Positions 26,688 through 31,263 of a stretch of 39,846 nucleotides of DNA are shown piece after piece (the stretch's first letter is position 1; each line of letters starts with the position of its first letter). The notes beneath the pieces were generated by a model. The model was given only the letters and a program-made list of their open reading frames with translations, did not search any database and was not told the origin of the DNA. Source of the DNA: Bacteroidia bacterium (GTDB taxonomy: Bacteria > Bacteroidota > Bacteroidia > B-17B0 > Aurantibacillaceae); the NCBI GenBank assembly GCA_026414605.1, contig JAOAIP010000027.1, positions 1-39,846 on the forward strand, written 5' to 3'. The translations under genes were made by a program, and so were the position numbers.

Positions 26688-28772
26688 ATGAGTGAAACCA
26701 CTATGTTTGTAAAAACCAAAATATCTGTTGATGTCCTTCAAAAGGCATACCGCTTGATGTATACAGCCAAAACAATGGCGGATGTGTACGAACAAAAAAG
26801 AGAAATTACCTCCAAATATGTGCACGCCACATCGCGCGGACACGAAGCCATCCAATTAGCCACAGGAATGCAACTGTTACCTCACGATTTTGTTTTTCCT
26901 TATTATCGTGATGATGCTATGCTTTTGGGCATAGGACTGACGCCTTATGAGTTGATGTTGCAGTTATTAGCCAAAAAAGACGATCCTTTTTCGGGCGGTA
27001 GAACTTACTATTCACATCCTTCTTTGAGAAGAGAAGATATGCCTAAAATACCTCATCAAAGCAGTGCTACAGGAATGCAAGCCATACCTGCAACAGGAGT
27101 AGCATTGGGCTTTTGGTATCAAGAAAAACAAGGAATACCAAATGAACAAAACGGGCTAAAACCTATAGTCGTTTGCTCATTAGGCGACGGAAGTTGTACC
27201 GAAGGCGAAGTATCCGAAGCATTTCAAATGGCAGTATTAAAAAAATTACCTATACTCTATTTAGTGCAAGACAATAAATGGGATATTTCTGCGTATGCGG
27301 ACGAGGTTAGAGCCCAAGACATTTCTGACTATGCCAAAGGATTCAAAGGATTAGAAACACGAAAAATAGATGGTACGGACTTTATTTTATCCTATAATAC
27401 AATTAAAGAGTGTTTAGAAATTATTCGCAAAGAAAGACGCCCAATGATCATTCACGCTACCGTTCCTTTACTTAATCACCATACATCAGGAGTAAGAAAA
27501 GAATGGTACAGAGATGATTTGGAAGAAGCCGCTAAAAAAGATCCTTTGCCAAAATTAAGAAAACAACTCATTATTCACGGTATTTCTGAAAAAGAAATTG
27601 TTGATTTAGAAAAAGAAGTAGAAAATTATGTTTGGGAAGAATTTAATAAAGCCCTTTCTGCACCTGATCCTGAACCCGAACAAGCCACTCAATACATTTT
27701 TGCTCCTACTCCCATCACAGAAGAAAAAGGCAATCGTTCGCCCGAAGGAAAACAAAAAGTAGTAATGGTAGATTGTGCCTTATTTGCTATTCGGGAACTT
27801 ATGGAAAAACACCCTGAATGTTTGTTATATGGACAAGATGTAGGAAAAAGATTAGGTGGCGTATTTAGAGAAGCCGCTACATTAGCACAAAAATTTGGAG
27901 ATCACAGAGTGTTCAATACGCCTATTCAAGAAGCATTTATTGTTGGATCGACTGTTGGAATGAGTGCAGTGGGCTTAAAACCCATTGTAGAAGTTCAATT
28001 TGCAGATTATATATGGCCAGGATTAAATCAATTGTTTACAGAAGTCAGCCGTTCGTATTATTTAAGTAATGGTAAGTGGCCTGTAAGTATGATACTTCGT
28101 GTTCCAATAGGTGCTTATGGAAGTGGGGGACCTTATCATAGCAGCAGTGTTGAAAGTGTATTAACGAATATAAAAGGAATAAAAATTGCCTACCCAAGCA
28201 ATGCCGCCGATTTGAAAGGATTATTAAAAGCCGCTTATTACGATCCCAATCCTTGCGTCATATTAGAACATAAAGGGCTGTATTGGAGCAAAGTCAAAGG
28301 CACAGAAGATGCTAAAACCATTGAGCCCGACGAAGAATATATACTTCCATTTGGCAAAGCAAGAATGGTACAAACGGCTGATGAAAAATATCAGCAACAA
28401 GGAAAATCTGTTTTAATAATAACGTATGGAATGGGCGTATACTGGGCAAAAAGTGCTTCATCAGACATTAAAAATCAAGTTAGCATTTTAGATTTAAGGA
28501 CATTAGCCCCACTGGATGAAGATGCTATTTTTAATGAAAGTAAAAAACACCATAAAATTATTGTTTTAACCGAAGAATCAAAGTCCAACACTTTTGCACA
28601 AAGCATAGCAGGTCGCATCGTAGAAGAATGCTTTGAATATCTGGATGCACCCGTGAAAGTAATTGGTGCTCTTGATACCCCTGCTATTCCATTAAATGAA
28701 ACATTAGAAAAAACTGTATTGCCTAATTCAGAAAAAGTAAGAAAAGTCATTGATGAGATATTAAGATATTAA
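26688..28772 (+). CDS. 2-oxoacid dehydrogenase E1, fused alpha and beta subunits
   Basis: This 694-aa thiamine-diphosphate enzyme joins E1-alpha (~1-340) and E1-beta (~355-694) in one chain, as is common in Bacteroidota. The alpha half has 'SRGHEAIQLATG' and the ThDP/Mg motif GDGSCTEGE...N (166-196). The beta half has 'GQDVGKRLGGVFREA', 'RVFNTPIQEAFIVGSTVGMSAVG' and 'PYHSSSVE', the usual E1-beta signatures. It decarboxylates a 2-oxoacid, most likely branched-chain or pyruvate-like, and passes the acyl group to an E2. No E2 or E3 gene is adjacent. The gene is divergent from the topoisomerase gene. Confidence 0.92.
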   Translation: MSETTMFVKTKISVDVLQKAYRLMYTAKTMADVYEQKREITSKYVHATSRGHEAIQLATGMQLLPHDFVFPYYRDDAMLLGIGLTPYELMLQLLAKKDDPFSGGRTYYSHPSLRREDMPKIPHQSSATGMQAIPATGVALGFWYQEKQGIPNEQNGLKPIVVCSLGDGSCTEGEVSEAFQMAVLKKLPILYLVQDNKWDISAYADEVRAQDISDYAKGFKGLETRKIDGTDFILSYNTIKECLEIIRKERRPMIIHATVPLLNHHTSGVRKEWYRDDLEEAAKKDPLPKLRKQLIIHGISEKEIVDLEKEVENYVWEEFNKALSAPDPEPEQATQYIFAPTPITEEKGNRSPEGKQKVVMVDCALFAIRELMEKHPECLLYGQDVGKRLGGVFREAATLAQKFGDHRVFNTPIQEAFIVGSTVGMSAVGLKPIVEVQFADYIWPGLNQLFTEVSRSYYLSNGKWPVSMILRVPIGAYGSGGPYHSSSVESVLTNIKGIKIAYPSNAADLKGLLKAAYYDPNPCVILEHKGLYWSKVKGTEDAKTIEPDEEYILPFGKARMVQTADEKYQQQGKSVLIITYGMGVYWAKSASSDIKNQVSILDLRTLAPLDEDAIFNESKKHHKIIVLTEESKSNTFAQSIAGRIVEECFEYLDAPVKVIGALDTPAIPLNETLEKTVLPNSEKVRKVIDEILRY

Positions 28773-28783
28773 AGTAATGTTTA

Positions 28784-29042
28784 CTACTCAGCACTTCAAA
28801 CTTAACCACAAAGAGCACAAAGAAAACTCACACAAAACACACAAAGAAAATAATTAGTTGAAAGTAGAAAGCGAAAAGTAAAAAGTCCCATAGGGACAAG
28901 ACAAAATATAATCTATCAAAGATACTATGTGAACTTTGTGCACATCCTTTGTGTTCTTTGTGGTAAATATAACACACGAGTAACAAAAAAATCAATTTAT
29001 ACTCAAATTGTATTCAATTAAATTCCTATTCAGCACCTCAAA
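28784..29042. repeat. Inverted-repeat element flanked by imperfect direct repeats
   Basis: This is the only stretch of more than 300 bases without a gene (28773-29109). It holds three nested symmetries. First, an inverted pair, ACCACAAAGAGCACAAAG at 28805-28822 and its near-complement at 28947-28964, matches at 17 of 18 bases across 124 bp. Second, the central palindrome GTCCC-ATA-GGGAC lies at 28885-28897. Third, a 17-base direct repeat, CTACTCAGCACTTCAAA at 28784-28800 and a copy at 29026-29042 differing at 2 bases, flanks the whole. Extra CACAAAG-type units lie inside the left arm (28838-28846) and right arm (28934-28940). No ORF or transposase is inside. It resembles a non-autonomous mobile element or a REP-like intergenic repeat; which one is not decidable here. 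Confidence 0.7.
28885..28897. repeat. GTCCC-ATA-GGGAC palindrome inside the repeat element
   Basis: A perfect 5-bp stem with a 3-base loop lies near the middle of the inverted-repeat element. It could form a small hairpin in RNA or bind a dimeric protein, but the stem is short and chance is not excluded. Confidence 0.5.
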
Positions 29043-29070
29043 AAAAGAATTTGCCGAATTAGCCCTATTG

Positions 29071-29109: not shown

Positions 29110-31263
29110 ATGAAAAAATCTCTTTTCTATTTTATATCCTTTTTTTTAGTTTTAATTAAAACACATTTTGCTCAATTAAATTTATCCACTACTACTCCCC
29201 CAAAAATAGGCATTAGTGCTGGAAATATGAGTTTTTGGGGAGATGTAGGTGATGTTAACTATCAGCCCCCTCTTACTTCAAGATATGGATTTGAAATAAA
29301 TTTTTCTCATCAACTAACAAATTATCTTCAACTCAATTTTAATTTTCTATATGGAAAATTAAGTGCAGTAGAAAATACTTATTTAAGACACGAAAATTTT
29401 CAATCTGAAATTCGTTACGGTGGATTTTATTTGTTGTATGATTTTGGCAATTTAATTCCTAAAAGATATGCTATTCGTCCTTTTATTTCTGCTGGTGCAG
29501 GTGGTTTTGAATTTTTAAGCAAAAAAGATTTATTTGATAAAAACGGAAATCGTTACTATTACTGGAGTGATGGATCTATTCGCAATTTACCTGAAAATTC
29601 ACCCCAAGCATCACAAGCCGTACATTTAGTAAAAGATTATTATTATGAAACAGATATTCGTGAAAGCAATTTAGATGGTTATGGAAAATATCCCGAAAGG
29701 GCGTGGGCATTTCCAATTGGTGCAGGAGTAGTAATGAAAATCACTAATCATTTTGATTTGAAAATAGGAACAAGTTATTTCTTTACAACTACTGATTACA
29801 TTGATGGCATTGCAAAAGGTGGCCAAGGACTTCGTAAAGGCGATTCTAAAAACGATAAGTGGGTATACTCTTATGTGACCATTCAATATGATTTATTTAT
29901 ACCCAAGAAAAAATCTGAAACACCTGGTGTTGATACATTACCTGATGATTATTTTAAGGATGTTAACTGGATGGCTATTGATAGTGCAGATACCGACGAA
30001 GATGGTGTAAAAGATTGGTTTGATAAATGTCAAGGAACACCTAAAACTGCAAAAGTATACAAAGACGGATGCCCTGAAGACACTGATGGCGATGGCGTTC
30101 CCGATTATTTAGACGAAGAAAATCCTTCGCCAAAAGGATTTGAAGTAAACTTAAAAGGTGTTGCCTTAACCGATGAATACTGGCAAAAATGGTATAATGA
30201 ATATTTTGATTCAACGGGCATCTATCACACCACTGAAGAATACATTGACAATGTAATGGCATTAAAATCAAAAGAAGTAAAAGACGCTAATAAAAAAATT
30301 TATACTGTTGAATTAGCCCGCTATAAAGACGGCGTACCTTCTGATGAAATTGCCTATTTGATGAGTATTGGCGATGTACGTTCAATGACTTTAGAAGATG
30401 GTACTACCGTTGTTTATACTGCAGGTCAATACGAAGATGTAATGTTGGCTATCAAGCGTAGAGATGAATTTAGAGAAGAAGGATTGAAAAAAGCCAATGT
30501 AGGATATTTCAAAAATGATCAATACCACTCACTAACAGATGAAGAATTAAAAGCAGAAATTGAAAATCAAAAAAATAAAAATATCGCAAAATCTGACAAC
30601 AATAATAAAAACCAAACATCTTTACCAAATAACAATACAAACAACACATCTACTACTGAAGAATTTAAAAAAGATGAAATCATTTATCGTGTGCAATTAG
30701 GAGCATTTAAAAGACAAATCTCAAAAGACATATTTAAAAATGTTCCAGGCGGAATTATAGAATTTCAAACAGAAGACGGATTATATAAATATGCAGGCAA
30801 GGCATTTAAAAACTTACAAGATGCAGTTGAATTCCGATCTAAATTAGTTTTAATGGGTTATTCCGACGCATTTGTTACTGCCTACAAAGACAGAAAACGG
30901 ATACCCTTGAGCGAAGCCGGTGCTACAATGATTAGCAAAGAAAAAGAAAACTTAAAAGAAAATGTGGCATTTAGTTCTATTGATAAAAATGCTATTGTAT
31001 TCAAAATACAATTAGGTGCCCTGAAAAAACCTGAAAACATTCAAGAATTTGAAAAGAAAACTTCTCAACTCAAAGACGTCCAAAAACAAAATACAATTTT
31101 AGGATTGTATCGCTTCACATCAGGTCATTTCAATAGTTATGAACAAGCCCAAAAATATCTTCAAGAATTGCATAAAAAAGGATTTGAAGATGCTTTCATT
31201 ATTGCAACGTTTAATAATGAACTCATCCCCGTTCAAGACGCTATAGAACTTTTAAAACTGTAA
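29110..31263 (+). CDS. Outer-membrane barrel / TSP3 / SPOR-like repeat protein
   Basis: This is a 717-aa envelope protein. The start at 29110 is chosen because it gives a clear signal peptide (MKKSLFYFISF..., cut after HFAQ) and sits directly below a consensus promoter; a longer frame opens at 29008 but would begin inside the promoter and repeat element. A beta-barrel-like domain (~30-270) is followed by thrombospondin type 3 calcium repeats (~294-335, 'DTDEDGVKDWFDKC', 'DTDGDGVPDYLDE') and three SPOR-like segments (~396-465, ~525-600, ~631-705). The segments share 'V.LGA(F/L)K...' openings and 'YA...(F/Y)...A..F...L...GY.DAF' endings. SPOR domains usually bind septal peptidoglycan. An asparagine/lysine-rich linker lies near 490-520. 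Confidence 0.85.
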   Translation: MKKSLFYFISFFLVLIKTHFAQLNLSTTTPPKIGISAGNMSFWGDVGDVNYQPPLTSRYGFEINFSHQLTNYLQLNFNFLYGKLSAVENTYLRHENFQSEIRYGGFYLLYDFGNLIPKRYAIRPFISAGAGGFEFLSKKDLFDKNGNRYYYWSDGSIRNLPENSPQASQAVHLVKDYYYETDIRESNLDGYGKYPERAWAFPIGAGVVMKITNHFDLKIGTSYFFTTTDYIDGIAKGGQGLRKGDSKNDKWVYSYVTIQYDLFIPKKKSETPGVDTLPDDYFKDVNWMAIDSADTDEDGVKDWFDKCQGTPKTAKVYKDGCPEDTDGDGVPDYLDEENPSPKGFEVNLKGVALTDEYWQKWYNEYFDSTGIYHTTEEYIDNVMALKSKEVKDANKKIYTVELARYKDGVPSDEIAYLMSIGDVRSMTLEDGTTVVYTAGQYEDVMLAIKRRDEFREEGLKKANVGYFKNDQYHSLTDEELKAEIENQKNKNIAKSDNNNKNQTSLPNNNTNNTSTTEEFKKDEIIYRVQLGAFKRQISKDIFKNVPGGIIEFQTEDGLYKYAGKAFKNLQDAVEFRSKLVLMGYSDAFVTAYKDRKRIPLSEAGATMISKEKENLKENVAFSSIDKNAIVFKIQLGALKKPENIQEFEKKTSQLKDVQKQNTILGLYRFTSGHFNSYEQAQKYLQELHKKGFEDAFIIATFNNELIPVQDAIELLKL

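Follow-up and report, generated by a model that had tools for sequence, protein, structure and literature searches.

The intergenic element at positions 28,780-28,984 of the window, by which we mean the whole stretch of 39,846 nucleotides from a Bacteroidia bacterium that was analysed, is quite probably a degenerate, gene-less copy of a mini-transposon (MITE), an assignment made through its homology to sister elements. The mirrored arrays of CACAAAG-type words that it carries are arms of a kind that also brackets genes for GxxExxY proteins, a PD-(D/E)XK nuclease-like family (PF13366/TIGR04256). As an object the element is an ordinary, worn MITE copy, and the unusual lead is the family that joins arms and nuclease. 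The unit, to which no strand is assigned, was delimited by the match of its end to a matrix and by homologous copies with the same ends in the source genome. It is 205 bp long, begins 7 bases past the stop codon of an E1/transketolase-type dehydrogenase gene (26,688-28,772, + strand), and contains neither an ORF of at least 80 aa nor a GxxExxY gene. No ORF of at least 80 aa is present between the E1 stop at 28,772 and position 29,008, from which only an upstream extension of the next gene, using an alternative TTG start, is seen; ORF analysis places this gene, which encodes a SPOR-domain protein, at 29,110-31,263 (+ strand), with 29,110 as its likely ATG. The original prediction of a segment with no gene inside is correct for the unit.

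The end matrix was derived from 39 distinct elements in three other genomes, all flanked by perfect target duplications of 8 bp and bounded by GTTACTRYTCAG-type ends; sequences from the source genome itself and elements with 7/8 duplications were excluded. Because the best match of the whole window to this matrix, on either strand, falls at 28,780 (15.1 bits, the next being 9.4), we take this position as the start of the unit. Shell end A (28,780-28,793, + strand) reads TTTACTACTCAGCA, the consensus being GTTACTRYTCAGCA. Shell end B (28,971-28,984, - strand) is degenerate, GTTACTCGTGTGTT standing for the consensus GTTACTGTTCAGGT: the first six bases are exact, so that GTTACT alone is kept, and the score at 28,984 is 0.2 bits. 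The same end-B variant is found in other copies of the source genome, L022 and L031 among them. No clear target duplication surrounds the window copy, which gives 4/8 or 6/8 identities by hand alignment depending on the register, and it is because the sister elements are homologous, while a duplication of its own is not seen, that we describe the element as a degenerate copy of a MITE family.

Copies abound in the source genome. Two DNA queries returned 83 and 80 blast pieces, which correspond to at least 59 loci once the coordinates of both searches are clustered with weak rows omitted, so that the family membership anticipated in the original prediction is borne out and the absence of any other copy, named there as evidence against mobility, is not what the genome search gave. 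These copies share the ends GTTACTACTCAGCAC... and ...CCTGAACAGTAAC, and the longer ones (L031-L037) are layered, passing from the outer end through ACCACAAAG words and inner arms of the AAAGTTGAAAGT type to up to four GC-rich hairpins; of this plan the window copy shows the outer layers and a single hairpin. In L031-L060, the CACAAAG arms enclose inner arms built of AAAGTTGAAAGT units, together with a GC-rich hairpin cassette (GTCCCGTAGGGAC, GCCCCGAAGGGGC, CACAGGGCAAAGCCCTGTG, GCCCTGAAAGGGC); the AAAGTTGAAAGT arms might conceivably belong to four-helix-bundle genes (PF05635). One copy in this genome has a clean duplication (GAATTTTT, flanking the 369 bp at C5:13639-14007); it is the sole clean case there, and a second case with a 7/8 duplication extends over 1074 bp into a gene and seems spurious. 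A further repeat, of a type running from AACTCACCCCCATCCCCTCTC to GGGGTGAGTT, adjoins copies in the flanks of L039, L045 and L051, and an IS66-like relic (DUF6444, E 2.9e-6, with a stop entered as X) lies beside L015.

The original prediction had drawn the element as a 260-bp unit at 28,784-29,042 bounded by a 17-base direct repeat. The repeat is real as sequence, 28,784-28,800 (CTACTCAGCACTTCAAA) and 29,026-29,042 (CTATTCAGCACCTCAAA) agreeing at 15/17 positions when aligned by hand. Its reading as a decayed duplication has to be given up, since target duplications in this family measure 8 bp and are found beyond the GTTACT ends. Nor is the direct repeat the scar of a duplication, because its right half forms part of the end of a second dispersed family of repeats; the motif shared by the two halves is that of an end, present once in the window element and once in the neighbouring second-family end. 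An element is thus present where one was predicted, with 28,780-28,984 as its natural unit, and 28,985-29,055 is a separate segment (no strand assigned) whose outer end reads GGCAAATTCTTTTTTTGAGGTGCTGAATAGG inwards. This segment occurs alone at 7 other loci of the source genome, and the third-best matrix match of the window (29,022) is inside the right half of the direct repeat. An outer end GGCAAATTCTTTTTTTGA is more or less common to L011, L016, L017, L018, L024 and L029, and among these six inspected copies L017 only has a second matching end. The inner hairpins of the second family are AGTTCCGTAGGAAC and GGACTTTAGTCC / GGACTGAAGTCC; the window carries one end only.

That the shell moves is shown, by ends together with a duplication, for the sister elements of three other genomes and for the one clean copy in the source genome; for the window copy we infer it. 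Among fetched loci with a match to the terminal inverted repeat (TIR), an 8/8 duplication behind the inverted end is seen in 29/61 cases in G377, 15/53 in G050, 17/25 in G031 and 1/6 in the source genome (total known matches being 73, 61, 55 and 6, respectively), compared with 0 to 1.6% at 8/8 in a control with swapped duplications. The 39 distinct duplication-flanked elements in G377, G050 and G031 are 88-588 bp long; 34/39 contain an internal inverted repeat that exceeds all 40 shuffles, and 37/39 are word-enriched. In G031, a genome of the same class but of a different family, these ends enclose interiors of several kinds and are flanked by 8-bp duplications such as AAATTATT, CAATTCTC and CTTACCAC. 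The TIR 13-mer GTTACTGTTCAGG was rejected as a marker, as it matches 62/295 genomes but the cases inspected outside G031 are mostly coding (VTVQ), and end plus duplication was used in its place. A search for a clean empty site found none. At L076 (G031:C45), CACAAAG arms sit within a different outer inverted repeat, TTGCGAAAGTCCTA.

Inside the window element, the predicted inverted arms and central palindrome are both confirmed. Inverted-repeat analysis gives a left arm of near-tandem ACCACAAAG / CACAAAG words (28,805-28,850, + strand) and a right arm with the same words inverted (28,925-28,964, - strand), a second CACAAAG pair lying inside. Positions 28,805-28,822 (ACCACAAAGAGCACAAAG) and 28,947-28,964 pair at 17/18 bases; the best ungapped inverted repeat scores 15, a value reached by 0/200 dinucleotide shuffles of the region (mean 8.1, max 12), and a 40-nt version of the arms (28,802-28,841 / 28,928-28,967) is 73% complementary. 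The palindrome AGTCCCATAGGGAC at 28,884-28,897 (no strand assigned) is exact, and longer copies then add the three hairpins GCCCCGAAGGGGC, CACAGGGCAAAGCCCTGTG and GCCCTGAAAGGGC. Folding of the RNA of 28,780-29,045, proposed earlier as a check, gives z -4.3 on the + strand and z -3.3 on the - strand, both strands being more stable than all 200 shuffles. This stability, and a start only 7 bases past a stop codon, would suit a structured RNA or terminator retained by the host at the 3' end of the E1 transcript. That explanation is very unlikely, given that Rfam yields no gathering-level match over the whole window, that at least 59 loci are found in differing contexts, and that none of the seven relatives inspected downstream of E1, where gene order also differs, has the element. 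The E1 gene was found in 37/41 genomes; at the orthologous locus of G002, the closest relative with this gene, the element is absent, but the downstream gene is also different.

The original prediction left open whether the element is MITE-like or REP-like, and only the first description stands. Hairpins, intergenic position, high copy number and word-like tags do recall REP-like sequences mobilised by a Y1 (RAYT) transposase. The source genome, which is 96% complete, has no match to PF01797, and Y1 transposition would not be expected to leave 8-bp duplications or to use inverted ends, so we regard a REP-like origin as extremely improbable.

The arms themselves lead beyond the source genome. 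The same arms lie next to a GxxExxY gene in both G031 and G006, the gene of the latter having an in-frame stop, and three duplication-flanked shell elements (537 and 497 bp in G031, 588 bp in G050) encode a GxxExxY protein; each of these proteins scores far above the cut-offs of TIGR04256 and PF13366, and no other protein is recognised among the ORFs annotated in these elements. We sampled GxxExxY genes regardless of arms and compared the matching of the two flanks of each gene with controls. A first look at 30 loci of the class gave a within-locus arm median of 13 versus 9 for cross-locus pairs (p=4e-8; p=5e-4 versus E1-gene loci). A second set of 80 loci was taken from a broad collection whose titles include Bacteroidetes, Planctomycetota, Acidobacteria, Ignavibacteria, Anaerolineae, Verrucomicrobia and Alphaproteobacteria. 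The 76 of these with sufficient flank length have a within-locus median of 15.5, versus 8.75 for distal windows (p=1e-16) and 9.0 for cross-locus pairs (p=7e-28), and 34/76 are above every distal control. For a third set of 80 further loci of the class, 76 of which were used (the gene was not located in L437, L448, L472 and L485), the median is 16.0, compared with 9.0 for both distal and cross-locus controls (p=9e-23 and 6e-16), with 55/76 above the distal 95% point. The words vary between loci (CACAAAG, CACAGAG, CACGGAG, CGCAAAG, CACAGAT, ACAGGAT), and the two arms of one locus match each other. Mirrored CACAAAG-type word arrays thus bracket GxxExxY genes, both in a sample from several phyla and in a sample of the same class. 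In-frame stops are present in 6/80 GxxExxY matches of the broad set, as in the G006 copy, and are expected of a decaying mobile gene.

Arms and gene also go together across genomes. The arm pattern AACCRCNRAGNNCRCNRAG occurs in 122/295 genomes of the class (850 sites), versus 25/295 for the reversed control (27 places among the matches listed), in line with the statement in the original prediction that similar arrays are common in some environmental genomes. GxxExxY genes are found in 176/295, and presence tables transcribed by hand give 99 genomes with both, 23 with arms only, 77 with the gene only and 96 with neither (p=1e-10). Some arm-rich genomes have no PF13366 match at E<=1e-10, namely G248 (57 sites), G220 (15) and G219 (13). 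The source genome contains 5 exact arm sites and no GxxExxY/PF13366 match.

These observations bear on what moves the element, and one candidate is the GxxExxY protein itself, which would cut hairpins or cruciforms formed by the arms, gene-less copies being its non-autonomous substrates. Such a role would account for arms that match far better within than between loci, and for GxxExxY being the sole recognised protein in the three duplication-flanked elements. The active-site D and E-x-K are invariant across 22 aligned GxxExxY proteins, and weak matches to a structure model (pLDDT 78) are led by the Holliday-junction resolvase Hjc and by EcoRV (Z 5.7 each), although values of Z <8 may reflect a common fold only. 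The best Foldseek match of the model has E 0.059, and a PDB sequence search with GxxExxY gave no match. At L147, moreover, the word arms are themselves the terminal repeats and adjoin an 8-bp duplication. This locus is one of the 3/101 (101 of 110 loci used) in which a shell-free scan around GxxExxY genes detects 8-bp duplications, none being detected at 6, 7 or 9-12 bp; the corresponding count in a second sample is 1/76, and most GxxExxY loci are therefore without sign of recent transposition, which argues against the protein as mover. L154 and L159 are GxxExxY loci of ~698 bp with ends GCTACTCTTT and 8-bp duplications CCCGGGGA and TGCCCCCG. The source genome, furthermore, has amplified the element yet lacks a GxxExxY match, and we know of no PD-(D/E)XK enzyme that acts as sole transposase. 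On balance we think it rather unlikely that GxxExxY moves the element. A GTTACT shell with duplication is found at 0/104 other GxxExxY loci (104 of 110 used), and arms and shell are therefore separable.

We favour, instead, movement of the shell by an IS66-type transposase supplied in trans, which we consider the most likely explanation. Insertion sequences of the IS66 family make 8-bp target duplications. An element starting GTTACTACTCAGGGGTTAA is cut off by the ends of two contigs in G377, and an ORF opens ~100 bases inside the GTTACTACTCAG end. The ORF is a 58-aa fragment cut by the contig end, and its N-terminus (KNSNSSHTPPSQDLGRSNQK) has 50% identity over 42 aa in pairwise alignment to an IS66 transposase; the protein compared is a plasmid homologue (tblastn E 0.1) that matches Pfam PF03050 with E 1.5e-33. 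Pfam and NCBIfam searches with the 58-aa fragment gave no match, and, beyond the plasmid protein, sequence searches with this ORF start returned a chance-level phage match (E 4) and no relative on viral contigs. DNA and pattern searches for the transposase found nothing, nor was a full-length IS66 copy bounded by these ends obtained. ORFs adjoining unpaired ends were also considered as transposase candidates and were rejected as host genes on inspection of 16 translations by eye.

Taken together, the data are consistent with an element of two layers. The outer layer, with its GTTACTRYTCAG ends and 8-bp target duplication, is the mobile part in the sister elements and in one copy of the source genome, and presumably so in the window copy; it is most likely bound at its GTTACT ends by the IS66-family transposase and inserted with an 8-bp stagger. 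The inner layer is a pair of mirrored arrays of words (ACCACAAAGnnCACAAAG) like those on either side of GxxExxY genes; some sister elements have kept the gene, and the source genome has lost it or never had it. The mirrored arms are predicted to fold into hairpins or cruciforms, probably as putative binding or cutting sites of the GxxExxY protein, and arms that can form cruciforms beside a nuclease modelled as resolvase-like are a suggestive combination. For the window copy mere persistence would suffice, and the most that its hairpins, just behind the stop codon, might influence is the 3' end of the transcript from the upstream gene. We tentatively raise the possibility that GxxExxY and the mirrored arms form a widespread two-part selfish system, in which a small PD-(D/E)XK nuclease, perhaps a cruciform resolvase, would recognise arms whose words drift with the gene, and would ride in or feed IS66-type mini-transposons. 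Gene-less copies, such as that in the window, might then be parasites of this system, and the common intergenic ACCACRRAG arrays its footprint. Literature searches on the family (PF13366/TIGR04256/PDDEXK_3) found almost nothing, those on the arm words ACCACAAAG and CACAGAG and on a link between IS66 and MITEs found nothing relevant, and a description of the link between arms and nuclease was not found in them; the arms belong to a nuclease-associated repeat system that these searches did not find described. The link provides an origin for intergenic repeats of a very common type, and the arms are a directly testable candidate substrate for an uncharacterised nuclease family.

Among known systems, the closest in form are bacterial MITEs, such as BrickBuilt of Porphyromonas gingivalis (PMC4596501) and the Cardinium MITE derived from IS982 (PMC9769881). 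Such elements, like the window family, are short, gene-less and multi-copy with inverted ends, and BrickBuilt is also intergenic. The neighbouring genes of the window element, and related named loci, point to the same phylum, Bacteroidota. The window family differs from them in having GTTACTRYTCAG ends and mirrored word arms rather than a 23-bp minisatellite or an IS982 remnant, and in that some of its members carry a GxxExxY gene. With REP/BIME sequences and their RAYT (PMC3733652) it has dispersed intergenic palindromes in common, and it is unlike them in lacking a Y1 transposase and in having inverted ends with target duplications. The gene-less window element differs from GxxExxY/PDDEXK_3 loci, where none of the 104 others has a duplication-flanked GTTACT shell, and resembles them in its mirrored word arms, three shell elements carrying the gene. 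The likeness of the window family to the IS66 family (PF03050) is in the 8-bp duplication and in the candidate IS66-like ORF start inside the same end in G377.
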